Below are positions 5,206 through 46,184 of a stretch of 64,000 nt of DNA, in pieces. The stretch is from Candidatus Woesearchaeota archaeon (GTDB lineage: Archaea; Nanobdellota; Nanobdellia; Woesearchaeales; JAAOYA01), in assembly GCA_018221105.1 (NCBI GenBank), contig JAAOYA010000009.1, positions 1-64,000 on the forward strand. The letters are read 5' to 3'. Position numbers and translations under genes: made by a program. A model generated the notes under the pieces. The model had not been told where the DNA came from and ran no database searches. It worked only from the letters and a program-made list of their open reading frames with translations. How positions within the stretch are numbered: the stretch's first letter is position 1; each line of letters begins with the position of its first letter.

Positions 5206-8200
5206 ATGATTTTGAAAAAAAAAGAGTTGACAATATTATCCTTGCTAGCATTCTTGGTAATTCTAACAACAACAAGTTTAGCATGCACCACTCCAGTAGA
5301 TGACTTGTATATCAATAATGACACAGTACTGTGCAACGGAACATACAGTATTGCTGACACAGGGAATGGTTTAATTATCATAAATGCTTCAGATATTGTC
5401 ATAGAATGCAATAATACAATAATTAATGGAACATCTAATGGTATTGGTTTTAACATTACTGGCTTGGATAACGTGACTTTGAAAAATTGTGATATTCGTA
5501 ATTACGCCTCGCAATTATATATTGTGAGTGCTAAAAATACTATAATTGACAATACTTCTTTTATCAATGATCAATCTACTGCTATTAAGTTAATTTCATC
5601 AAATGATACTAGCATAATAAACAGCGATTTTTCCGGGTCTTCAAACGCACAAGTAATTAATGATACTGGTACAATAGCATTTAATGGATTATTTGAAAAC
5701 AATACTGTAAAAAACTATAATACAACCGTAATTGATTTTTCAGAAGCCTACAATTGGATTTTTAGAAATAATAATATTTATAACACTGCATATTTGACAG
5801 CAGGTTACACTGCAATAGTACAAGACAATATATTTAATAATTCTGCAAGTTATTTTTTATCAAAGGTACAAGATGATACACAAGTTTATAACAACACCTT
5901 TATGAATGCTCCATCCGCTATACATTTATTATTAGCAACAGCAGAATTTGCAAATAACACATTTACAAATATACAAACTGCTTTTGACAGGCCAGACAAC
6001 GCTGCCATAAAATTTTTGGGCGGCAACACTTTTACAAATGTTAGTGCCATAATGAATTGGACTTTAGACACAACAATTTTTATAAGAAATAGTCAACAAT
6101 TACCACAAGGTAATTATTTCTTAAATGATTCTGGTAATGACGGAGCAATAATAATCGACGCAGATAATATAGAGTTAGATTGCAATGGTGTTGTGCTCAA
6201 CGGTATGACTGTTGGTAAAGGTGTTGTTGATACTTCTAATTCCAATGTTACTATTAAGAATTGTGAAATCAGAGATTATAATGATGGGTTTAGTTTAACA
6301 GATGTTATCGATTTTGCCAGCGTCTCTAACGATTTCTCCAACTTACCAGGTGATGGCGTTGGGTGTTACAACAACTGCACACTTTTAAACATAACAGATA
6401 ACAGTTTTTACGCTGTGGGCTGGCCAATAGACCTTGACGGAACAGACTACTTTGACCAAATAACAATAGATAATGTAACCACTGAACTTGATGAAAGCTA
6501 CGGTATATATATTGATAACAACTTATTTAATTCAAACATAAGAAACGTCAAGATAAATAACAGCAACGGTGGATGGGGCGGAATATATATCGGTAGCGGT
6601 TATAATAATAACCTGACAAGTATCATAATTGAAAACAGCGATTCAGCAGCTCTAGAATTATACAGTTCATATAACACAGTAGTAGATAGTATAACAATAA
6701 CTTCAAACGCGAGAGAAGGCTTTGTTCTTTTAAGTTCTTACAACAACGTTTTTAAAAACACATTGATAACAAGTTGTGGGCGGGACGCGATAAAAATAAG
6801 CAACGCTGCGTCAGATAACAACACCTTTGAAAACATAACGATAACAAACACGAACGACGTATATTATGATTTGAACGTAGCCACAGCAGCTATTGATGGA
6901 ACAAAACTAATAGATACACACATCTCAAACTATACATTTGCTGGGGCTGGTGGAACACTAACAATAAAAGAATCAGGACTTGGCGAATTAAAGTATTTAC
7001 AAGTAGTTAATGGTAATGGGTATCACTTAAACGATGGAGACGCAAACGCGATTGTTAACATTGCTTCAAACCTTATAAGTGTCAGAAGCGACTTATCATC
7101 AGAGTTTAATAAAAGTGCAGAGCTTATTTTTTACTACACTGACAGTTTAGGATTTTCAAATAAAATACCTTATCGTAATGGGGTAATGTGTCCTGTAACT
7201 ATTTGTACAGAACTACAAGACGCTGACGTCTATATGTTTAATGTTACGCAGTTTTCAAATTATAGTGTAGGAGGGACAATACCTCTTGCTAATGACACAC
7301 TATTAAATCTTAGCACTACAGTACAAACTGATGGCTCAATAACAATATCTTGGAGTAATCAAAGCGGCGTAAAATATAATGTTTACAGAAATATTAGTGC
7401 TTTATCAGCTCCAGTTAGTAGTTTGCAAAGAATTGCTGCTAACATAACAACACTAAGCTATGTTGACACTAGTGTTAGTGCCAGCACAACATACTTTTAT
7501 GTCATAACAGTAAGTGATGCTAGCGGGGAAAACCAAAGCTCAATAACAAGCAATGTTAACGTTACAACACCTGCAACTTGTAGCAATGCGTATGGCGCGT
7601 GGGGTTCTTGGGGTGCTTGTTCAAGTTCACAACAATCAAGAACTCGCACAAGAACATGTTATGTAACCGTGGGCAACACTGATACTGATACTGGAACACA
7701 AAGTTGCACTTCAGGCGGTGGCGGAGGCGGTGGAGGTTCAAGTACAGCAACCGATGGCATAAGCCAATCAATTAGTTTATCAGAGATGAAAAATGGCACA
7801 AGCAATGTTAAGTTTTCAAAAGCAACAATTGACGTAGTAGAATTAGAAGTTGCCATATTAGAAAACAGTAACAAAGTAAAGTTTACAGTAACAAAACTAG
7901 CCACTAAACCAAAAATCCTGCCAGAGAAAGCAAAAGCTTACGGTTACTTATCTATTGATCATGAAAACCTTGAAGACAAATACATTAAATTTGCAAAAAT
8001 AAAGTTTAAACTCTCAAAAGAATGGATAGCGCAAAATGCTAGTTCTCCAACAAAAATAAAACTATACCGCTATACTACACAATGGGACGAGTTAGAAACA
8101 CGAATGTACCTACAAGACATTGTTAATTATTACTTTGAAGCAACAAGTCCTGGACTGTCATACTTTGTAATAGGGGTAGAAGGAGAAGAGCCGGAAGTAA

Positions 8201-8496
8201 CAGTTCAAGAGCAGGCAGAAACTCAAGAAGAAGACCTTGGCACAGCAGCACAAGAGGATCAAACAACAGCCGATCAAGAATCACAAGAAGAAAAAGCTGA
8301 AACTCAAAAATTTAACCCATTAAACAAGTTTAACAGGATATTATTTGGATTATTATTAACAATTGTAATAATTGCAACTTTTATGCTGCACCACCATCAC
8401 ATAATACAAGAAAAGAAAACAACAAAACAGCCTGAAAAGAAAAAAAGTACTTCCAAAAAAACAAAAAGAAGAAAATCAAGCACAAAGAAGTCCTAA
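5206..8496 (+). CDS. Large secreted/membrane-anchored surface protein: parallel beta-helix repeats, Fn3-like, TSP1-like, PGF-pre-PGF-like domain, TM, Lys-rich tail
   Basis: N-terminal signal/TM; repeated N-x-(I/V)-x-N beta-helix pattern; WGSWGACSSSQQSRTRTRTC; SISLSEMKNGTSNVKFSKATIDVVELEVAI...PGLSYFVIGVE; C-terminal TM and KKST/KRRK tail. Confidence 0.8.
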   Translation: MILKKKELTILSLLAFLVILTTTSLACTTPVDDLYINNDTVLCNGTYSIADTGNGLIIINASDIVIECNNTIINGTSNGIGFNITGLDNVTLKNCDIRNYASQLYIVSAKNTIIDNTSFINDQSTAIKLISSNDTSIINSDFSGSSNAQVINDTGTIAFNGLFENNTVKNYNTTVIDFSEAYNWIFRNNNIYNTAYLTAGYTAIVQDNIFNNSASYFLSKVQDDTQVYNNTFMNAPSAIHLLLATAEFANNTFTNIQTAFDRPDNAAIKFLGGNTFTNVSAIMNWTLDTTIFIRNSQQLPQGNYFLNDSGNDGAIIIDADNIELDCNGVVLNGMTVGKGVVDTSNSNVTIKNCEIRDYNDGFSLTDVIDFASVSNDFSNLPGDGVGCYNNCTLLNITDNSFYAVGWPIDLDGTDYFDQITIDNVTTELDESYGIYIDNNLFNSNIRNVKINNSNGGWGGIYIGSGYNNNLTSIIIENSDSAALELYSSYNTVVDSITITSNAREGFVLLSSYNNVFKNTLITSCGRDAIKISNAASDNNTFENITITNTNDVYYDLNVATAAIDGTKLIDTHISNYTFAGAGGTLTIKESGLGELKYLQVVNGNGYHLNDGDANAIVNIASNLISVRSDLSSEFNKSAELIFYYTDSLGFSNKIPYRNGVMCPVTICTELQDADVYMFNVTQFSNYSVGGTIPLANDTLLNLSTTVQTDGSITISWSNQSGVKYNVYRNISALSAPVSSLQRIAANITTLSYVDTSVSASTTYFYVITVSDASGENQSSITSNVNVTTPATCSNAYGAWGSWGACSSSQQSRTRTRTCYVTVGNTDTDTGTQSCTSGGGGGGGGSSTATDGISQSISLSEMKNGTSNVKFSKATIDVVELEVAILENSNKVKFTVTKLATKPKILPEKAKAYGYLSIDHENLEDKYIKFAKIKFKLSKEWIAQNASSPTKIKLYRYTTQWDELETRMYLQDIVNYYFEATSPGLSYFVIGVEGEEPEVTVQEQAETQEEDLGTAAQEDQTTADQESQEEKAETQKFNPLNKFNRILFGLLLTIVIIATFMLHHHHIIQEKKTTKQPEKKKSTSKKTKRRKSSTKKS

Positions 8497-16490: not shown

Positions 16491-18710
16491 ATGGCAGAAC
16501 TAACAATAATACCCTATAACACAGCATTTAACCCACAAATTGATAGTACAACATATCAAATCTATGCTAGAGGGACTGCAGGGAAAAAAATCTGTTTAAC
16601 AACAAAAAACGTTTATCCACGCTTTTACATAAAACTAAAACCAGTCTATGACATGCAAGAGTTCGCAGACAGAATAAAACAAATAAAAATCGAGTGGGAC
16701 ACACCATACACAGTAATCGACACTACAATAAAAGAACGATTAATGCGCTCCAAACCGACGAAACTAATAGAAGTACAAGTCAACGTACCAAGAGCAGTAT
16801 CAATAATTAGCAACATATTAAAAAAACGCGCAGAAGTAGAAGAAATCTATGAAGCAGACCTATTATTTAGGCGCAAGTATTCACTAGGGAAAAAAATCAA
16901 TCTCAACAATTTATACAACGCAACAGCAAAACTAACAAACACCACGCCAACAATCGATTTTTACGAATTAGAAAACCTAGAACCACAAGTTGGCACCATA
17001 GATTACGAGCCAAAAATATTATCGTTTAGCATGCAAAGAACAGAAAACGGCATACTAGCAATCAGCACACACATAGGTGGCATCACAAAAACATTCAGTT
17101 GGAAAAAACCAACAATCGACAGTCCAATACAATCAGAACAACAATTAATCAATGCATTCAAACATTACCTGCAACAAACAGACTATGACATAATAACAGG
17201 CTATTACAGCGACAAAGGAATAGAATTCTTACAAAAAAGAGCACACCGCTACAAAATAAAATTAGACCTGTCAATTGACGGCCAAGAAATAAACTTTGTT
17301 AATTACCCCAGAATCTACGGCTGCAACCACATAGACCTAAACCCACTGCTCAAAACTCATCGCAAGTTCTTATCAAGCAAAGCATTAGAATTAGAACAAC
17401 AACTATTAGAATTAAGCACACCACTAACATCACAAGCAGAAGAAATGTCAAAAAAAAGAGCAGTAATACTGCACGAGCTATGCAAAGAAACACTACCATT
17501 CTTGCTTGAATACTCCAAAATTACTAGTATGCCAATAGAAGACATCGCACGCTTTAGCGGACAACAATTAGGAGAGTGGTACTTGATAAAAAAATTTTTA
17601 GAAGCAAAACAAGTAATACCATTAAAACGCTTTGACGTAAAAGCGCAAAGGCCACGGCAAACAAACATCAATGCCAGCGGACTATACAAAGACCAATACT
17701 TCACCAATATAACATTGTTAGCGCCAATGATAATGGCACATTACAACATTGATGAAAACAAAAAAAATTGTGATTGTTGTCCACAACGAGACAGCAAAAA
17801 CCATGGTTTTTGCATGCAAAAAAAAGGCACAGTGCCAAAACTATTAGAAGAACTGGGAGCAAGGCACAAAAAAATAAGCCAGCTGAAAACAGAAAGTCAA
17901 ACAATATTTGAGCGCGCTGACATACTAGAAGACCTGGCCTATCACATATACTCAAACCTTGCAAGCCCGACAAGTCGATGGTTCAGCCCAGAAGTAATCA
18001 CGAAAACAGACGAAGTACTAACAGAATACCTGCAACGATTAAATCGTCAAAGCATCACATATAAAGACTATGAAACATTATTTGTAGAACAAGAAGCAAA
18101 ATTTGGCAGTGTTAGCCGCTGGCCAGAACTATTACGATTAGACTTTGAAAAAGCTGACAAAGTATTTTTTGCAAACAACAAATATGCCCTAACAATAGGA
18201 CAAGAGTTTATAATGAGAGGTTTTGATTACAAGCGCAACACCAGCAGATTAAATGCTGAAACACAAGAAAAAATATTGCGATTATTATTATTTGGAGATG
18301 TCAATACAGCATTAGAGCACGCAAAAAACACAGTAAAAGCATTGCAAGAGCGCCAAATTAACAAACAATCACTAATGATATCAAACGTGCTAACACGAGA
18401 CTTACCAGAGTATGAAAGCAAAGACGCTCACATAACAATAGCAAAAGACTTAGAGCAAAAAGGACACTTAGTGCGCGCTGGAACACTAATAAATTATTAT
18501 GTTAGCAATCAAGGAAATTTAGTGCGTGAAAAAGCAAGAACACTGGACAGTACAGAGCCATACGACATAGATTATTACTTAAACAATCAATTAATGTCGA
18601 TGATGACTGAAATATTTTCACCGCTTGGCATTACAAAAGAACAAATAATACAAAAAGTTCAAAACATCAACACAGTAACTGATTATTCAACAACAGCAAA
18701 CAGTTTGTGA
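16491..18710 (+). CDS. Family-B DNA polymerase homolog, predicted catalytically inactive
   Basis: PolB-like layout: NTD, exonuclease-like DIITGYYSDKGIEFLQKRAHRYKIKLDLSIDG, IEDIARFSGQQLGEWYLIKKF, thumb FIMRGFDYKRNTSRLNAETQEKILRLLLFGDVNTALEHAKN; no DIE, no DxxSLYPSII, no YGDTDS. Confidence 0.82.
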   Translation: MAELTIIPYNTAFNPQIDSTTYQIYARGTAGKKICLTTKNVYPRFYIKLKPVYDMQEFADRIKQIKIEWDTPYTVIDTTIKERLMRSKPTKLIEVQVNVPRAVSIISNILKKRAEVEEIYEADLLFRRKYSLGKKINLNNLYNATAKLTNTTPTIDFYELENLEPQVGTIDYEPKILSFSMQRTENGILAISTHIGGITKTFSWKKPTIDSPIQSEQQLINAFKHYLQQTDYDIITGYYSDKGIEFLQKRAHRYKIKLDLSIDGQEINFVNYPRIYGCNHIDLNPLLKTHRKFLSSKALELEQQLLELSTPLTSQAEEMSKKRAVILHELCKETLPFLLEYSKITSMPIEDIARFSGQQLGEWYLIKKFLEAKQVIPLKRFDVKAQRPRQTNINASGLYKDQYFTNITLLAPMIMAHYNIDENKKNCDCCPQRDSKNHGFCMQKKGTVPKLLEELGARHKKISQLKTESQTIFERADILEDLAYHIYSNLASPTSRWFSPEVITKTDEVLTEYLQRLNRQSITYKDYETLFVEQEAKFGSVSRWPELLRLDFEKADKVFFANNKYALTIGQEFIMRGFDYKRNTSRLNAETQEKILRLLLFGDVNTALEHAKNTVKALQERQINKQSLMISNVLTRDLPEYESKDAHITIAKDLEQKGHLVRAGTLINYYVSNQGNLVREKARTLDSTEPYDIDYYLNNQLMSMMTEIFSPLGITKEQIIQKVQNINTVTDYSTTANSL

Positions 18711-19234
18711 ACACGATCATCATAGCGAGCAAACTCGCCAGCAACAGTGTCATAATAGAAAACAGTGGCGTCAACAACATAAGTTCCAGGTTCAGTTCCT
18801 CGCGCTACACCAATTGCTGTTGTGAAAATATGACGCTCATGCTTTTTTAATGTTCTAGCATCAATTTCAAAAAAAGTCGGTAGCGGATTAGGACTTGCAG
18901 TTGTGGTCTTATCAGGTCTTATCAACTTATTAAAAACAAGTTCTACCTTAAACTCTGTCTCGTTTAACACATTCAAGACCCCGACACCATAAACAGCACT
19001 ATCGCCAACATCAATTTTGTAAGTGTCAAAAGGCACCACTACTTTTTCTTGACCAGCAGTTAATTGCCTGACAATCTCATTGCGCGTTTGTTGGTCTAGC
19101 TCGTTTTTAATGTTAATGCCGGTGTCTAATGCTTGAAAAACAAGTTTTAGGCCAATACCAAACACTACCATTGCTATAATGATAACTACAATTATGTTAG
19201 CACTTAATTCTATCGCAGAGCGACGATTGCTCAT
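18683..19234 (-). CDS. Type IV pilin/archaellin-like secreted protein
   Basis: N-terminus MSNRRSAIELSANIIVVIIIAMVVFGIGLKLVF. Confidence 0.65.
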   Translation of the reverse strand: MSNRRSAIELSANIIVVIIIAMVVFGIGLKLVFQALDTGINIKNELDQQTRNEIVRQLTAGQEKVVVPFDTYKIDVGDSAVYGVGVLNVLNETEFKVELVFNKLIRPDKTTTASPNPLPTFFEIDARTLKKHERHIFTTAIGVARGTEPGTYVVDATVFYYDTVAGEFARYDDRVHKLFAVVE

Positions 19235-19477: not shown

Positions 19478-20101
19478 TTAAGGGTCAATGTCAATAAACA
19501 AGTTGTTGCGAGCATACACATCATTATCATCAGTCAAGTCATTACAGTCACCAACTGATGAAATTGCAGTATTGCTTAGAGCGCATACTGTTACAGTAAA
19601 CTTGTAAGTCTCATCCTTTGCAGCTTGTGGAATAATAGTCACTGGTAAAACTTCGACTTTTCCGCCATCAATTTCTTGATTGTCAAACCATTGAATATCC
19701 GGCTCTTCAGCAGTATCACAAGCCCCACTATCAGAGATTTGTTGAACACAATCAAAACTAATAAAAAATGTATCGCTATCAGCGTCTATGTTTTTGACTC
19801 CGATAAAAACACCTCTCTTTTTTTCACTGCTCTCCATTCTAATACTTTCTGCGTTGAACGCTATTTTTTGAGTTGTTCCTTTTAGGCGGTTAGCCATTTC
19901 TTGCTGCATCTCATCAGTTACTTGTTCGAACTGTCCTGCAACGCCGCCAAAGCTTTTTCTCATAAAGCCAAGACCTAAGCCAAGCATTGTAATAGCTAAA
20001 ATTAATACTACAATAGCGTTAATTGAAAGACTTAAACTACCTCTTTTGCGACTTGGACCGCTAAAGACTTGCGGTACGAAGAATAACCCTGAATTTTTCA
20101 T
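19478..20101 (-). CDS. Type IV pilin-like secreted protein
   Basis: SRKRGSLSLSINAIVVLILAITMLGLGLGF pilin-like processing region. Confidence 0.65.
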   Translation of the reverse strand: MKNSGLFFVPQVFSGPSRKRGSLSLSINAIVVLILAITMLGLGLGFMRKSFGGVAGQFEQVTDEMQQEMANRLKGTTQKIAFNAESIRMESSEKKRGVFIGVKNIDADSDTFFISFDCVQQISDSGACDTAEEPDIQWFDNQEIDGGKVEVLPVTIIPQAAKDETYKFTVTVCALSNTAISSVGDCNDLTDDNDVYARNNLFIDIDP

Positions 20102-20221: not shown

Positions 20222-20740
20222 ATGGCAAAATTAAGAAAATTTGTCGCTTATCGACGTCAAGAAAGACCTTATACTAGAATAAGTAAGTTTCGAAAAAAAG
20301 CATATGTTAAAGCTAGACCTAACTCTAAAATTGTTCGCTTTGATATGGGAAACCTCAAAAAAGATTTTCCAGTAAAAGTACATTTAATCTCAAAAGAAGA
20401 TGTTCAAATACGCCATAATGCTTTTGAATCAGCACGCTTAGCATCAAATAGGTTAATGGAAAAAAACGTTGGTAAAATAAACTTCAACATTAAAATTCGA
20501 GTGTACCCGCACCACATTTTACGCGAGAACCCTTTAGCTAGTGGCGCTGGTGCTGACAGGATGAGTACGGGAATGAAGTTAAGCTTTGGAAAAACAATCG
20601 GTGTTGCAGCACAAGTTGACAAAGAACAAAAAATCATGACCATTGGCGTTGCAAAAGAACACATTGAACTTGCAAAAAAAGCTTTAACAAGATCTTATCA
20701 AAAACTTCCTTGCTCTTGCAGAATAGAAGTAGAAGCTTAA
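20222..20740 (+). CDS. rpl10e: Ribosomal protein L10e (uL16)
   Basis: RRQERPYTRISKFRKKAYVKARP; RVYPHHILRENPLASGAGADRMSTGMKLSFGK. Confidence 0.93.
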   Translation: MAKLRKFVAYRRQERPYTRISKFRKKAYVKARPNSKIVRFDMGNLKKDFPVKVHLISKEDVQIRHNAFESARLASNRLMEKNVGKINFNIKIRVYPHHILRENPLASGAGADRMSTGMKLSFGKTIGVAAQVDKEQKIMTIGVAKEHIELAKKALTRSYQKLPCSCRIEVEA

Positions 20741-20794: not shown

Positions 20795-21880
20795 ATGCAA
20801 CTAGGAGAAACTATCAGTGCGCTAATACAACAACAATTTAACGTATTAGTACCAGCAGATTTTTTAAACGCTGCAATACTATTTGTAGGCTTTCTAATAC
20901 TCGCAAGACTGGCAATATTTGTCAATGAAACATACCTTCTAAAAATTGCCAAGAAAACAAAAACAACAGTCGATGATATAATACTTAGAAAAGTAGAAAA
21001 GCCAATAGCAGTACTGCTAGTGTTTATAGGATTTCGATTAGCAATAAAATACTTGCCAACAGTACCACAACTAGTTTTTGACATTACAGAAACAATAATA
21101 GTGCTACTAATTTTCGGGGTGATATTTTCAATCACAAGATTGTTTATGGGACTTTTAGAAAAACGTTGGGAAGAAAACGTCACTTCAGCACCATTAGATG
21201 AGGAAGTACTGCCATTAGTCCGGTCTTTTGCAAACGTCGTATGGATTTTTATCATGATAACAGTCCTGTTAAGCGTGTGGGGCGTTAAAATAAAACCATT
21301 ACTTACCAGTCTAGGAATAGCCGGTGGACTAGTAGGACTTGCAGCTTCATTTGCACTAAAAGACACACTAGCAAACGTTTTTGGAGGAATGTCATTAATA
21401 CTAGACAGAACATTCAGCGTACACGATTTTATAGAATTAGAAGACGGCAAGATGGGAACAATAATCGACATCGGTCTTAGAAGCACCAAAATAAGAACCT
21501 ATGAAAACAAAGTAATAATAGTTCCAAACGGAGTATTATCAAACAGTCAAATAATCAATTACGCAAAACCAAACAATGTCATCAGACAAATAGCACAGAT
21601 CGGAGTAGCTTACGGATCAGACCTTAATAAAACAACAGAAGCAATACTTGACGCGCTAAAAGGATTAGAAGGAGTACTAGAGCACCCAAAAGCAGAAGTG
21701 CACTTTATCAAAATGAACGAGTACTCATTAGACTTTAGAGTATTATATTATATAGAACATTATCGCAATAGGTGGGCAATGGAAAACAAAGCAATGAGAG
21801 CAATACACAAATCACTACTAAAAAACAAAATCAAAATACCATTTCCAACAAGAACAGTATACCAGTACAAAGGAAAATAA
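20795..21880 (+). CDS. MscS-family mechanosensitive channel
   Basis: GIAGGLVGLAASFALKDTLANVFGGMSLILDRTFSVHDFIELED; NGVLSNSQIINYAKP. Confidence 0.92.
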   Translation: MQLGETISALIQQQFNVLVPADFLNAAILFVGFLILARLAIFVNETYLLKIAKKTKTTVDDIILRKVEKPIAVLLVFIGFRLAIKYLPTVPQLVFDITETIIVLLIFGVIFSITRLFMGLLEKRWEENVTSAPLDEEVLPLVRSFANVVWIFIMITVLLSVWGVKIKPLLTSLGIAGGLVGLAASFALKDTLANVFGGMSLILDRTFSVHDFIELEDGKMGTIIDIGLRSTKIRTYENKVIIVPNGVLSNSQIINYAKPNNVIRQIAQIGVAYGSDLNKTTEAILDALKGLEGVLEHPKAEVHFIKMNEYSLDFRVLYYIEHYRNRWAMENKAMRAIHKSLLKNKIKIPFPTRTVYQYKGK

Positions 21881-37335: not shown

Positions 37336-39021
37336 ATGAACTCAGACATGCTCGCAGAGCACATCAAAAAAAGCATTAAAAGCGGTATTTCTAAAAAAAA
37401 GACAGTTTATTACTTGCGAGGACTAGGTTATTCAAAACAAAAAATTGTAGCAGGCTACGATGAATACCACAAAAAGCATAACATATTGCAAAAGGCACAT
37501 CACAGAGCGCATTTTATCACTAGTAAAACTGGGATGTACATTGAAGAACTGATACTTTTTGCAATAATTGTGATGAGCGTTCTTGATTTCTTGAATTACT
37601 TGCCAGGAGATATTGACATAGTAAAAAAAGTTTTGTCATGGACAGCAGTAGGCTACCTTATTTACAAAGTGCAACTATCAAATATTTTTTTTGGAGAGCA
37701 CAACAAACGTCATGACAAGTTAATACTAATAACTTTTCTGATATTAATAGTGAAAAAAGTTGTTCATTACAGCATCAGAGTGCGCGAAGAAACAACATTG
37801 CTTTATTATTTTCATGATTTGATAATATCAAACGCTGCAATACTAGAGTACACTGCTTTGATAGCGGGTTCAATACTTTTGTTTGTTCTAGCTTTTTATT
37901 TTGCGATAACAGTAGAGCCACGCTACCCTTCAGTTTTGACAGTGATGCACAATAGTGTCAACAGACCAAAAAACCCGTTAGAGTTAATCACAAGGTTTTT
38001 GTCAATATTTTTTATAATGACACTTTTTTACTTGTTTGTTTTTGATCCTTTGATGGAGTGGATTGCAATAGCTGTTGACGCCCCGCTTATAGTGATAGCA
38101 TTATTTGTCTATATTTTCTTGTTTGCAAAACACGCCAACAAGTTTCACGCTGAAAGCTTTTTGTACAAAGTTGGAACTGTGGGAGAGCGTTCCATCGAAA
38201 AATTTATTGAACTTTTTAAGTATCGTGACACTTTCTTTTTAGGAATAACAGGACTTATTGGATTGCACTTACTCGTTGACATTGGAGTTTTTATCATCCC
38301 ATACATTACAGGTCTTGGCAACGCATTATACTTTGAGCTTACAGGAGCTCACACTCCACTAGTAAAACTTTTGATTGGACAATTGCAAAACACTACGCTT
38401 TTGATTGACAAGATTTTTATTAGCATAGCGTACTTGTTCAATGTCATTGGAATAATAATGCTTTTTATAATGCCATCACTAACATGGTATGTGCTTTACA
38501 CAAAGAAAAAAATTTTCATACCCAAAAGTTTACTAGCATTATTTTTTGCCAGCACAATAGTTTTACTTTTTGCTCCAGTGCTAAAATTATCTTATATTAA
38601 AAGACCTATAACTGAAGGTTTTATAGGTGTGGACATTCAAACAATGACTTTAGCCACTAATGCAATGTTAATACTCTTTATTGCTTTTGGCGTGATGGCT
38701 TTTGTGTACGCTCTTAGTTATTTGCGTTTTGCAAAAAAAACTTTTTTAGTTATTGGAACTATTATAGCAACAAGCATTTTTGGCTATTACATATACTTTT
38801 ATTTTTTATCAACAGCAACTTTTTACTTAGATTCTATGATAGCAGTACAAAATGTACAATTGCTAGCAAACGTTTGGTTATTGTCATTTGTTCAATCACA
38901 AGCTAATAGTTTTCTAGCAAGCACTTTTGCAGTGTTTTTGTTCGCGTCCACTTTATTTTATACAGGTGGAGTAGTATTATTCTTGCTAGAAGTCATTCGC
39001 GGAGCTCACTTATTAGAATAA
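37336..39021 (+). CDS. Polytopic membrane protein with N-terminal helical (UBA-like) domain
   Basis: Many TM segments; N-terminal ISKKKTVYYLRGLGYSKQKIVAGYDEYHKKH. Confidence 0.75.
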   Translation: MNSDMLAEHIKKSIKSGISKKKTVYYLRGLGYSKQKIVAGYDEYHKKHNILQKAHHRAHFITSKTGMYIEELILFAIIVMSVLDFLNYLPGDIDIVKKVLSWTAVGYLIYKVQLSNIFFGEHNKRHDKLILITFLILIVKKVVHYSIRVREETTLLYYFHDLIISNAAILEYTALIAGSILLFVLAFYFAITVEPRYPSVLTVMHNSVNRPKNPLELITRFLSIFFIMTLFYLFVFDPLMEWIAIAVDAPLIVIALFVYIFLFAKHANKFHAESFLYKVGTVGERSIEKFIELFKYRDTFFLGITGLIGLHLLVDIGVFIIPYITGLGNALYFELTGAHTPLVKLLIGQLQNTTLLIDKIFISIAYLFNVIGIIMLFIMPSLTWYVLYTKKKIFIPKSLLALFFASTIVLLFAPVLKLSYIKRPITEGFIGVDIQTMTLATNAMLILFIAFGVMAFVYALSYLRFAKKTFLVIGTIIATSIFGYYIYFYFLSTATFYLDSMIAVQNVQLLANVWLLSFVQSQANSFLASTFAVFLFASTLFYTGGVVLFLLEVIRGAHLLE

Positions 39022-42000
39022 ACCTTCTCTAAAGCTTTATCAACACTTTCTTTTCTCCAACCCAAGCGCTCCAAGCAATGACGTATTGTTGGCTCTCCAA
39101 CATTATCTTGTTTTAAATGATCAATTTCAGGAATCAATTCTGCTGTTTCAAACTCAATATTTTCAATTGCTTTTTGCACTTTTGTCTCTTCTTTTTTAAG
39201 CCTTGCTTCTTCTGCGCGAGCTTCTACTTCTTCTTTTCTAATCTCAGCTTCTTTTTCGTGCAAATGCTCAATTTTTGATCTATTAAAAATCTCTAATGTT
39301 CGATAAAAAACTTTTACCAGTGGAAACTTGCTCATGTTCTCTTTGAACTTTTCAAAATTAAGCTTTTGCGCTACGCGCTTTTCTTCATTTTCTATTATTA
39401 CTTCTTGACTTTCAAGATTTTTTTCAGCGTTATAAATTGCGCGCTCTTCTTTTTTCAGCGCAGTCATTTGACTCATTAGTTCAGACTCTACAATAAAAGC
39501 AGAGTTGAAACGATTAAAAAATACAAAACCCAAAACCACAACAGGCGTGATTAATATTCCAATAATATAGCTTAACCATTTAAGCCAAGGGTTTTGCGAG
39601 AGTCCCCTGTCAGCTATTGCAACATTTTTGAATTGTTTTTTACACTCATCTAACAAGTTCTTATTAATACTGTACGATAGGTCTGTAGTTTCTGTCATAA
39701 TATCAAAATGCCATACTATAAGAGGGTCTGTTTGCTCTACTTCAAAATTCCAATTATTAAAGTGCACTCCAAGCTCTTCTTCAATTTGCTCTGGTGTCAT
39801 GTTAGCCTGCAACAATTCAATAACACACTTTGGAATATCCTCGTAAACACTAACATTGTAAAGTGGTGTTGCCACATCAATTGTTAAATTAACCAATGTT
39901 GTGTTTGTTGAGCTGTTAAAAACAAAACTTCTGTTAGTGCTATAATTTTCTGTTAGTTTTTGAGAGTCCATCTTCAAACTAATACTCTGCCAGTCTGAAA
40001 TCTGATTAGCATCGGCTATTTTGTCAATAATCTCTGAAATGTCATCATCAATATCTAAAACATCATCAACAATACCAGGCGATTCATTAGTTGGAGTGTT
40101 AGTGGTGTTGACAGTGCTATCGCCTGTAATATCTTCAAAACCAGTAGTGTTAGTATTATTATGGACTATGATAGTATTATTATCAGTGTTATCTGGAGGG
40201 GGACTACTGCCACCTCCGCCACCTCCGCCAATGTTTGACGTGCTATCACTACCATCGCAGTCCTGGTCAATGCCATCATCCAATACTTCAGGCGCCCCAA
40301 CATGAATTGTGCTATCAGTATCATCACAATCACCTAAAGTATTAGGATGAGCTAGTTGCGGATAATGAATGTCGCCGTCACCGTCTTCGTAGACGTAAAA
40401 AGTGTTGACAGTGCTAATGCCAACACTTGTTGAATCATTACAAATGACATTCCAATTATGAGCAATAGTTGAATAAGCTAGACCAGTAACATTCAATGTT
40501 GCGTTCGCTGTAGGCGTTAATATTACGCTTTGATTTTGTGCACCATCAACATACAAAGTGCAATTGACTGAAGCGTTATCATCGTCTACTGTGAAGTTAA
40601 GTGTTATGTTATGAGTGTTTGTAAAAACAAAATTATTAATTGGTCGAAGCGCTGTAATAGTAGGACTAATGGGTGATGCGAGAGTAGTAAAATTGTATGG
40701 TCCTTGCTGTGCTGTATTAGTGCTAGGATCCCTACTGCTAACATTATAATAATATAAAGTGCCGGATTGCAAGTTATTGACTTGCACTAAATGATGAGTT
40801 GTGTTGCTGCTAAAATTAGTAGTGCCAGGACCCAATGCTGTTGTAGTGCCAATAAATATTGTTGCAGTAGCATTTTCATCAGTATCCCAAATTATAACAA
40901 CAGACTCGTTAGTGATGCTAACATTTGACACATTACTAATAATTGGTGGCAGTGTATCAGTAATGTTAAAGTAGAAAGTTTGAGAAATATTACTTAACGC
41001 TCCATCATTACAATAAACATTCCAAAAATAAGAGCCATAACTTGCAGTGGTATGCTGCATTGTTGTCAAAGTATTATTTTGTACGCTATCATTGTAGCTA
41101 ACATTAAAATTATTAACTCTTAAAGTACAATTAAAAGTGTTATTGCCACCAATAACTGTAAAATTAAAATTCACAGTTAACGAATCATTTAATTGAGTAT
41201 TAGTTGGTGGAGCGCTAAGATTAATGCTTGGCTGTACAGTATTAACTAACGCTACCTGTGTGACATTAACAAAAAACGTTTTGCTGGTGTTAGTCCAGTT
41301 TTGACTGCCACTATAAACTGCTGTCACAGGGATTATTTTTGAATTATTAAATTCTACTAAGTTATTAATTGGTGTCGTGCCATTATTTACTAGAGTGTTA
41401 TTAACCCATAATTCAAGGTAGCCTTCAGTAGAGTTAACAGTAGCGTCAATTGTCAAGTTAGTGTATTGTAAAATGGTAGTGTTTGACTCTGTATTGTTGA
41501 TTGTTAAGTTCAAGTAAGTTGTAGCTTGAATGACTGTTAAGGTTTGAATACTAGTGTTGTGTTGAGTGTAATTTTGTGATTGTGGAGCCGCGCAAGTAAA
41601 ATTATAAGTTCCAGCTGAAAACCAACTAACATCAATTTCTTCAGCAAGGTTTAGTGTCAGACCATTTCTTACTAGTGTTCTATTAGGCTGTAATGTGTTT
41701 GACGTACAATTAATTGTTACGTTTTGACCGTAAGTTATAGTGCTTGGTATTATTGTAATATTGAACACTGGAGTGGCTCTTTGTATTGTGTAGCTAAAAT
41801 TGATAGTGTTATTCTCATAGCCCGAAGTGTCATTGGCAAAATACTGCCACCCGTAAACTCCTGCTGCTAAAGGTCCAATATTATAATAGTATTCGTTAGA
41901 ACTATTGAATACTGATCGATTAATAGTCCACGGCCCTGTAAAATTGTGCGCTATCCAAACCTGGTCTATGCCACTAGCATCGACCCAAGTAGTGTTAAAC

Positions 42001-45000
42001 TGGTAAGTTAGTGTTTCATTATATGTTGTGGGACTTGTCGGATGTGTTTTATTGCTTGTCCAGTTTGGAGGAGAAGTGTCAACACTAACATTAAAACTGA
42101 TACTTGTGCTGTTTATATTGTTTGACGTGTCATTAACATAAATTGTGAAAGTGTACTGTCCATTAACTAATATTTCGCTGCTATTAGAACAACCAACCAG
42201 TGAATTATTGCTTGTTCCATTATAATACCAACAAGTATCAAGGTTAGCATCGCTTACAGTATAATTTATTGAAACATTATTTGAAGCGTATGTTATGTTT
42301 TGAGGTTCTTGCACTGTTAAAGTTGGTATTATTGTGTCATTAACTGTAAAATAAAAGGTTTGTGAAACATTACTGTTTGTGCCGTCTGTACAATTAACAC
42401 TCCAATTGTATTTAGTAGCATAACTTGGGACACTAGCTGTTAGTATTGTTGCAGTGTTGTTTTGCACTGTAAAACTATTATTTACTAAACTGTTGTCTAA
42501 GTACAATTCACAGGTTAGCGTGGTGTTTACATCATCAATTGCTGTGAAATTAAAATCAATAATTAAAGTGTTATTAATTTGAGTGTTATTAAGCGGCCAG
42601 TTTAAACTAATGCTTGGCGGGACTATGTCGGAGCTACTAACTTCTAACAATACAATGCTATAAATTCCTCCATGGTCAATAGTATGATGGCTGATGTTAT
42701 AATCATAGCCTGATTTATTAGCCCATACTTCGTGAGGTGTTAGTGAAATGTTTAAGTAGCCGGTAGAATAACCTTTCAGTGCTGTTCCTTCAATTAACAA
42801 AATATTATTTGTTAAACCTGAAGGACTAGTGTTTAAAGTGTCAATGTACAAACTGTTATTATCATAAATTGTTAAGTTTGCATTACTAATTGGAATACCA
42901 CTACTGTTTGTCACGTTAAAAAAAGCGTAATGATAAAATGTTAGGTTTGATGTTGTGTTAACAATGTTTAATCTTGCGCGATCAATTGTAACATTTAAAA
43001 AAGTAGCAAAAGAATTTTCGCCGATTTTTGTAGCATTACTAATTCCATAATTGTATACTATTGTGTTTTCTACAATTGCATTACTAGCGTTTGAAGAAAA
43101 TATCATTGTAGCACTGGTTGTTGAAGCGTTCAAAACACTGTTGTTTATTGTAGTGTTTTCACTTTGTCGAATATCAAGACCCCCGCCGCCTAATACTTTA
43201 AGGTTGTTAATGTAATTGTTATTGCTGCCTTGCAAGCCACTAAACAATAGTATGCTCGTAAAAGCAGAATTTGTTGTCACATTGTCAATAATATTGTTGT
43301 TTGATGAGTGAGTAGTATAACCTATTCTTATATTATCCCAGTTAGAATCGTTAAAAACAGTGTTTATTATAGTGTTATTATCGCCTAACAAATTAACTCC
43401 GTAATCATTGTTGCCAAAAAAAGAACTGTTGATTATTGTGTTGTCAGAGTATATTGTCAGGCCATAATTGCCAACTTCTGCGGGCAGTGTTTCACCACAA
43501 TCAATAACACTACTATTTTCTAAAAGAAAATCACTGTGCACTACCCAAGTATAATCAATACCTGTGTTAGTGCTGTTTATCAAACTGTCATAAACAAACA
43601 TTCCACCAGCTTGATCAGTAACATTTATTCTGCCTGCAGTAGCCATTGTCAATGTCACATTATCAAAAGTAAGGTTTGCACTATTATTGATTATTATATT
43701 ACCATTAACTGTTAGCGAAACATTCTCGCAAAAGGTTGTTTGGTCAACAACCCAATTGCCATTGCCAGCGTAATCAGTACCTGAGCAAAGCGGGGCGGAG
43801 GCATTGTTTAACAAGTTAATATTGTAAACGCCGGAGTGGTCGATAGTGTGATAGCTAATGTTAATATCATAACTTGGAGCGATAGCACTAACATTGTGCG
43901 GGTTGCGCGTTTCGTTAATCGATGATTGCATGACTACTTCTGCAAGAATTGTTTGATTAGTTAGACCATTAGGATTGGCGGTAAGATTTAACACACTGTT
44001 GCTATTATTGGCTTGTACTGTGATGTTCGCACCACTAACAGGCAAGCCTGAAGTGTTTGTCACGTTAAAGATAGCATAATAACTAAATGATATGTTTGCC
44101 CCGGACTCTATTAATAAATTGAACCTGTCCACTGTTGAGTTTATTATTGTGGTGGTAGCGTATGCTTGCGCCCACATGTCATCTATTGACCCTGCATTAG
44201 TTATCACAGTGTCTACTATCATAGTGTTTTGCGAGTAATCACTGACGTAAACACCGTAACAGTCGCCTGAAACATCAATTAATGAATTATTGATGATTGT
44301 GTCACTGGAATTTTCTACCCATATGTGATCATCATAAATAACCCAACACCCATCACTGGATTTTATATTGTTTAAATAATTAGAATTACTATTCTTTATG
44401 TGAAGATTTCTATAATTTGTGGCGTTAATAGTTACATTATCTAAAGTGTTGTTCGCTCCTCCTTCTATCCTTATGCCAACAGTTGCAGTCTCGACTCGAG
44501 TGTTTAATATTTTGTTGTTGCTTCCCACTATGTATAAAGCGTTTATAACATTTTCAAAATGTGAATTGTTAATGGTCACGTTATCATTGTAAATTGCCAA
44601 GCCGCGAACTAAATAATTACTGCCGTTGCCAACATTTCTTACAATAGAATTGTCCATGATAAAAGGCGCGTACACACGCCAAGTATAATTGTACTGGTTG
44701 TTGCTTTGCACTGTGCTATTATAGACGAACATTCCGGTTGAGGTCGCGAACACTTGAATGTCTAAATCGCCATCAGAAGAACCGTTTAGGTTCAACGTGA
44801 CATTATACAATGTCAGGTTGCCACCGGTCGTAACATTCACGTCACCGTAAACAACAAAGTTTGCATTAGAGCAAACAGTCTCTTGATCAACAACCCAATC
44901 ACTGCTACCACTGTACTCGCTGCCAGTGCACGCTGGCGGCGTGACTTCTGCTAAACTGAAATAGTATGTTCCAGAATGATTAATGCTTACGTTAGTATAA

Positions 45001-46184
45001 TTGAACACGTAGCCTGTCTTGTTAAACGTTACATTGTAGGGAATGTACGAAGTGTTGCTTGACTGGAACATTATAAGTTCTGTCATTATGAAGCGATTAG
45101 TAACTCCGGTAACAGAAGTGTTAATTGAATGCTCGAAAGCGTTAGTGCCATTTTGATAAAAAGACACGTTAACATCTTCAAGCCCGCTACCCGAAGAAGA
45201 ATCAGTAACATTAAACCAAACAAAATGCTGGAAAGTTATGTTGGCAGAAGGCACGCCGACAAAAGTAAGTTTATCGCGGTTAACACTAACATTGATTAAA
45301 TATAAGCTTGAACTTTGTTGTGCTTCGATACAGTCATACGCTGTGTCATTATTTGTTATTATTGAATTATAAAATTTTATACCTGTTGCATCATTGCTCA
45401 ATACTAAACAACGATCTGAAATTGTTGTTACGTTAATAACCGAATTATTAAATAAATTATTATCGCCGTCAATTAAAATATTATGGCCTTTAACATTTTC
45501 TAATATTAAGTTATCGAAAATATTATTTGTGCTTTGGTCGTCAATATTAATTCCATAAGATTCTACATTAGTAACTTGTACATACGAAAAAGAGTTATTG
45601 TTTGAAGGATTAGTATCTGTATTGTCTCCAAGCCAAATGCCATAAAATATTATATCACTAATAATTGTATTAGAAATAATATTTTCATTACTTTTTAAAT
45701 AATGGACTCCTACTTGACTAAAACTAATTTTAGAATTGCTAATATTGCTATTATTTGAATACATTGTTAAACCGTACTTACCATTGCCTCCGCCAGGACC
45801 ACAATTACTTACGTTGCTTTTGTCCATTTCAAATGGTGCGTAAACTGTCCATGTGTAGTTGTATTGATTGTGATTTTGTATTGTGCTGTTGTAGACAAAC
45901 ATTCCGGTGCTTGTTGGCGTAACATTTATTCCTTCATGGCCTTCACCAAAAGCTGACATGTTTAATGTAACATTGTTTAATGTTAGGCTAAACCCTGGTT
46001 GTACTGTGATGTTACCATCGATTACTAGTGTGTGATTATTAGAACAAGTAGTGTCTGCACCAATATCCCAATTACCTCCTGAGTAAGCCGGTGTACAAGT
46101 GGCGCTAACGATTTTTAGCATGGCAATTAAACTAATCAAAACTAACAATACTAGTTTCCAATTAGTGTTATTTCTTCTTGCCAT
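39006..46184 (-). CDS. Giant surface protein (2392 aa): three ~380-aa beta-helix modules, Ig-like repeats, MopE-like Asp-rich motif, TM, cytoplasmic coiled coil
   Basis: Signal peptide; modules starting [10 protein letters not shown] / [12 protein letters not shown] / [12 protein letters not shown] each with GMFVYxS...YTWxVxxxF; [47 protein letters not shown]; TM then KKEE-rich coiled coil. Confidence 0.88.
   Translation of the reverse strand: [2392 protein letters not shown]

Follow-up and report, generated by a model that had tools for sequence, protein, structure and literature searches.

The polymerase gene and its reading frame

The window—the whole 64,000-nucleotide stretch analysed here, from the start of contig JAAOYA010000009.1 of a Candidatus Woesearchaeota archaeon—carries a gene for a 739-residue protein that aligns with archaeal family-B DNA polymerases (PolBs). 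Its motifs were called in an alignment with 11 close active relatives (A1), in a second with 55 relatives (A3), and in a classification of 128 genomes. The features of the gene are listed below.

16491..18707 (stop codon to 18710), + strand: putatively inactivated PolB3 gene, 739 aa
17010..17039, + strand: Exo I region, PKILSFSMQR; catalytic D and E replaced by S180 and Q182, with DIE reading SMQ (180-182) in A1 and A3
17199..17231, + strand: Exo II, GYYSDKGIEFL; catalytic D243 replaced by G, with FDxPY reading GIEFL
17442..17468, + strand: Exo III region; YxxxD gone, about six residues deleted relative to active relatives
17703..17726, + strand: motif A, TNITLLAP (active form FDFRSLYP); catalytic D406 replaced by N
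17769..17813, + strand: cysteine motif C427-x-C429-C430...C441, NCDCCPQRDSKNHGFC; retained, a putative metal- or disulfide-type structural site
17925..17957, + strand: motif B; dNTP-binding K480 replaced by E, N484 by Y, G488 by S
18060..18077, + strand: motif C, YKDYET (524-529; active form Y(S/G)DTDS); D526 kept, second Asp replaced by Glu (E528)
18090..18227, + strand: second half of the palm; shortened, residues 534-579 with pLDDT below 50
18213..18656, + strand: thumb domain, the best-retained part
18654..18707, + strand: C-terminus, without the QxxLxxFF-type PCNA-binding motif present in most active relatives

The original prediction had named an intact 739-codon open reading frame, and the frame around it proves to be uninterrupted for 769 codons; together with an alignment that runs from end to end, this single open frame rules out a sequencing frameshift or a wrongly chosen frame. 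The protein matches KOD/Pfu-type polymerases over residues 86-723 (phmmer, E 9e-39), Thermococcales PolBs are its top PDB sequence matches, and it scores 29.8 bits for Pfam DNA_pol_B_exo1 and 43.7 bits for DNA_pol_B, with a cut-off of 23 in each case. The closest sequences are active PolBs of 800-850 residues from the same taxonomic order, at roughly 27-33% identity. No close relative of the window's copy was found, and its terminal branch in the tree spans about 3 changes per column; scanned by peptide pattern against 84,980 species genomes, the window protein alone retrieved no relative, whereas alignment A1 as query retrieved 80, whose named records belong to Candidatus Woesearchaeota. Simulated neutral change of 0.05 substitutions per site would place 5.9 stops in this frame, so an open frame at such divergence (about 30% identity to relatives) is not expected without selection. 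Recent decay is at odds with the intact frame, in line with the earlier view that a pseudogene is unlikely. A scan for sigma-70-type promoters is uninformative, the host being an archaeon.

Catalytic centres

The carboxylates of Exo I to III are all missing: S180, Q182 and G243 stand in for those of the first two motifs, and that of the third is deleted. By the residues that mark an active family-B polymerase the protein also fails, with N406 in place of the motif A aspartate and, in motif C, D526 present and E528 a substitution. Established PolB chemistry would predict from these residues that synthesis and proofreading have both been lost.

The original prediction had described both active centres as destroyed, and the substitutions behind that claim are confirmed in A1, A3 and the 128-genome classification. 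When the alignments were checked for catalytic aspartates that might have been misaligned, the absence of DIE from Exo I, of the aspartate from Exo II and of YxxxD from Exo III held, as did the altered motif A (NITLLAP for DFRSLYP) and the degraded motif B. The one refinement concerns motif C: YGDTDS is indeed absent, replaced by YKDYET, but the first aspartate is kept and the second has become glutamate. The motif C site is thus damaged rather than erased.

Retained and degraded domains

The cysteine-rich motif and the thumb, both said earlier to be retained, are indeed present. The C.CC...C pattern is nearly invariant in A1 and occurs in 11 of 12 PolB3s from genomes that also carry a group B7 polymerase (discussed below). 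Of 24 conserved thumb positions the window's copy keeps 15, compared with 21 of 62 in the fingers and second palm (p = 0.027); five other dead copies keep 18-21 of the 24 (p from 7e-4 to 9e-8). The window's copy lacks the PIP-like C-terminus that 94 of the 110 complete intact copies have and that 6 of the 8 complete dead ones still carry. AlphaFold confidence is about 90 for the N-terminal, exonuclease and thumb domains and under 50 for the palm, and archaeal PolBs are the best PDB structural matches of the predicted fold; the input alignment consisted of active relatives, which the fold partly reflects, and the prediction is weak for the dead palm.

Further evidence on retention comes from three genomes of genus g132, whose copies are all dead, 35-44% identical to one another, and open over 737-781 codons, with the N-terminal domain, thumb, cysteines and PIP-like motif retained. 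Pairwise likeness among the three is 43-52% in the N-terminal domain and 39-56% in the thumb, falling to 26-31% in the fingers and 21-34% in the second palm; two active pairs show 58-70% in the fingers, 61-62% in the second palm, 41-42% in the N-terminal domain and 44-57% in the thumb. The pattern of the trio is roughly the reverse of that in the active pairs, which suggests that constraint has passed from some domains to others without disappearing. Between the closest dead copies identity is 35-55%, at which synonymous sites should be saturated.

Identity of the gene

Profile scores place the window protein clearly within PolB3: 334 bits on a profile built from 49 active PolB3s of the order, as against 42 on the PolB2 profile and 65 on that of group B7. 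Membership of PolB2 was rejected on this score, on the YKDYET motif C and the asparagine in motif A, and on the separate clade that PolB2 rows form; membership of B7 was rejected likewise, the protein reaching only 40.3 bits on the bacterial Pol II-type profile NF004421 (cut-off 570). The genes beside it are the following.

18683..19234, - strand: pilin/archaellin-like gene by reading, no Pfam match; relatives adjoin other PolB3 genes of the order
19478..20101, - strand: second such neighbour, a short pilin-like gene; relatives adjoin other PolB3 genes of the order
20222..20740, + strand: ribosomal protein L16p/L10e; also adjoins the intact PolB3 of G013 and lies near the degenerate PolB3 of G077
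20795..21880, + strand: MscS-type channel; also adjoins the intact PolB3 of G013 and the degenerate PolB3 of G171

All four (MscS, L16 and the two short pilin-like genes) are common to the window and the intact PolB3 locus of G013, and subsets of the window's neighbours lie near the degenerate genes of G171 and G077. Gene order is mostly fluid, any window neighbour being kept at only 8 of 80 active PolB3 loci, and the neighbourhood comparison revealed no constant partner gene beside the dead copies. Only the g132 trio and G064 have an NYN-domain gene close to their degenerate PolB3 (L115 10256-11365, L114 4678-5451, L116 9499-10749 and L124 5828-6763).

The profile scores, the cysteine motif and the neighbours common to an intact relative identify the gene as the resident PolB3 rather than an extra copy; as judged from these features, it is the inactivated ortholog of the normal Candidatus Woesearchaeota PolB3 at its old locus. 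The term "paralog" in the original prediction must therefore be given up: this is the order's usual PolB3, inactivated in place, and the active PolB of the genome is a bacterial-type gene.

Other polymerases and the pattern across the order

A search for a separate intact polymerase, which had been proposed as a check, returned two systems in the window's genome. One is a complete PolD, with the catalytic RRDVDGDE of DP2 and the GNHD of DP1 present; the other is a Pol II-type PolB of 760 residues on another contig (C5:15068-17338), with intact motifs and a score of 739 bits against the NCBIfam cut-off of 570. The latter belongs to group B7, the Pol II-like polymerases of Woesearchaeota and Pacearchaeota defined by Kazlauskas et al. 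2020 (PMC7544198), who proposed that they were acquired from bacteria.

Among 353 genomes of the order, B7 occurs in 119 and PolB3, once cross-matches to B7 are removed, in about 227; the two coincide in about 19, against an expectation of about 77. PolB3 catalytic residues were read in 128 genomes, most of them drawn from the top and the bottom of the score range. Of the 18 with B7, 12 have a substituted catalytic carboxylate; of the 110 without, none has (p = 7.8e-13). Counted by family, the figures are 8 of 13 and 0 of 46 (p = 5.8e-7). A thirteenth B7 case, G072, is counted through an alignment gap at Exo II, and five genomes without B7 show gaps, mostly at contig ends, or a single motif B change. 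Family f60 holds both states: its PolB3 is intact in the absence of B7 and dead in its presence.

Since five B7 genomes (G004, G013, G014, G094 and G317) hold an intact PolB3, B7 permits the decay of PolB3 and does not force it. In most B7 genomes of this order PolB3 is gone, and 60 B7 genomes of other orders yielded no clear PolB3; this absence is what would be expected of a gene that is being lost. One order appears to contain a series—PolB3 alone and intact, intact beside B7, exonuclease lost, both sites lost, and gene gone.

Several PolB genes met during this survey deserve separate mention. On contig C61 of G002 (L125 1-3565) the C-terminal part of an intact PolB3, with YSDTDS kept and cut by the contig end, lies directly upstream of B7 on the same strand, so that the old and the new polymerase stand in tandem. 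Five loci (L134, L167, L168, L170 and L174, in G193, G250, G177, G225 and G238) have PolB3 frames of about 1260-1377 aa, probably containing inteins. Woesearchaeal-like PolB3s also occur in records labelled Omnitrophota (CP070655.1) and Methanosarcinales (L270 and L267), through either mislabelled bins or transfer.

Partial decay in other genomes

The PolB3 residues lost differ between genomes and lineages. Catalytic residues that survive somewhere among the degenerate genes include the Exo I D/E in G072, the Exo II aspartate in G045 and G256, and the motif A aspartate in G256 and G173; the copy in G019 is almost unrecognisable. Because each catalytic residue is kept in some gene, their joint loss cannot go back to one shared ancestor; decay has been stepwise and at least partly independent.

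Some genes are affected at fewer sites. The PolB3 of G064 (L124 2566-4923) has lost its exonuclease residues with all polymerase residues intact and is possibly at an intermediate stage. In family f35 (L089 and L094, from G034 and G286) PolB3 lacks the Exo II aspartate; the G034 gene also has Thr and Arg for the motif B Lys and Asn, its motif A and C aspartates being kept, and the G286 gene is divided between two frames.

Proposed inactivation in place and its alternatives

In the genomes examined, catalytic residues are lost only where B7 is present, from which we infer that the acquired B7 freed the PolB3 sites. It is fairly probable, in our view, that the resident PolB3 was inactivated in place after B7 replaced it and that at least some dead copies have been kept as a non-catalytic accessory. 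B7, once acquired, would take over the DNA-synthesis role, and the PolB3 active sites, freed from that duty, would decay; at least some of the dead proteins—the g132 genus being the best case—may then stay on at forks or at sites of repair, where their N-terminal domain and thumb would hold primer-template DNA and where, the window's copy excepted, they would dock on PCNA, until the gene would finally be lost in many lineages. The replaced polymerase seems, then, to have been kept for some non-enzymatic job before its loss. The likeliest role that can be predicted for it is that of a DNA-binding accessory without catalysis, in most lineages also docked on PCNA. The structural or scaffolding function named in the original prediction is likewise a putative one. 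With no PIP-like motif left and no close relative, the window's own copy makes a weaker case.

How many inactivations lie behind the dead copies bears on how much the association with B7 can carry. If they formed one old clade, inactivated once and spread along with B7 by descent or transfer, the association would rest on few events. The trees do not discriminate between one event and several, the degenerate rows being long branches: most of these rows group together without strong support (92 and 77), and the AU test allows a single clade that includes G064, G034 and G286 (p-AU 0.58), yet such very long branches attract one another, and G064 is placed among active genes in both trees. The survival of each catalytic residue in some degenerate gene and the common neighbours that connect particular dead copies with the usual locus also argue against a single event, which we regard as quite unlikely.

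A different objection is that the dead genes are functionless remnants, dispensable after the arrival of B7 and drifting towards loss, caught with the frame still open. This is the main rival for the window's own copy, where the PIP-like motif is missing and roughly 40-70% of conserved positions are lost per domain, and it draws on the absence of PolB3 from most B7 genomes and on the condition of the G019 copy. The stops expected under neutral change have nevertheless not appeared in the window's frame, and drift would hardly account for three g132 copies that, at their mutual divergence, keep frames, domains and motifs, with constraint shifted between domains; at least some decayed PolB3s, we infer, are still under selection, and we think the remnant explanation unlikely. 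Much less likely still is a specialised lesion-bypass polymerase, active through a rearranged active site in the manner of PolB2. PolB2 was itself predicted to be dead and later shown to be active in lesion bypass (PMC7544198; PMC8764526), and the window's motif C does hold D526 and E528; the PolB2 genes of the order, however, keep the motif A aspartate and the distal motif C aspartate where the window's copy has N and E, and the window protein has glutamate for the motif B lysine, lacks most conserved positions in the fingers and second palm, and bears no PolB2 signature.

A bolder form of inactivation in place can be put forward tentatively: gain of B7 may repeatedly and independently have turned PolB3 into a free-standing pseudo-polymerase under selection, one that grips DNA (perhaps sensing template uracil), usually docks on PCNA and acts with PolD and B7, as an archaeal counterpart to Pol epsilon's inactive half.

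Relation to known polymerases

The window's copy shares with the B3 group (KOD, Pfu, Tgo and the Woesearchaeota PolB3s) full-length homology, the order of N-terminal, exonuclease, palm, fingers and thumb domains, the cysteine motif, and neighbours as in an intact relative; it differs in that all exonuclease carboxylates and key polymerase residues are replaced, the second palm is shortened and the PIP-like motif is missing. The B7 gene elsewhere in the genome represents a bacterial-derived lineage distinct from it.

Inactivated archaeal PolBs have been described before as the PolB2 group (Rogozin 2008, PMC2527604; Makarova 2014, PMC4104785). Such inactivated paralogs were mentioned in the original prediction, but the window's copy does not belong to that group: PolB2 resembles the window's copy in its non-conserved Exo I, missing Exo III and altered motif C, but its motif C HG(I/T)xDS and motif A AEIDFxSxFP are missing here. 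Separate PolB2-type genes with a motif C of the form HGI(V/I/T)DS do occur in a few scattered genomes of the order (L127, L128, L129 and L133). The C-terminal half of Pol epsilon is also an inactivated PolB module (PMC2669801), essential in yeast and interacting with the CMG helicase (PMC7544198); it too has lost both activities, but it is fused to an active polymerase, whereas the gene in the window stands alone, in an archaeon that has PolD.

Inactivated archaeal PolBs and the acquisition of B7 (PMC7544198) were thus known already. In the literature searched, which covered few subscription journals so that absence is no proof, the former are one ancient group, PolB2, and the latter is not linked to loss of PolB3 active sites; no case was found there of PolB3 being inactivated at its own locus in several lineages, always in company with B7. 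The series in this order amounts to a natural experiment on the roles of a polymerase beyond synthesis and on the parts that outlive its chemistry, and it bears on the possible origin of the dead half of Pol epsilon. For DPANN genomes, a PolB annotation is no proof of an active polymerase.

Other genes of the window

Two further genes of the window probably encode surface proteins: a giant protein of 2392 aa with a beta-helix and a MopE-type metal-binding motif (39006-46184, - strand), and a beta-helix protein of 1096 aa (5206-8496, + strand).
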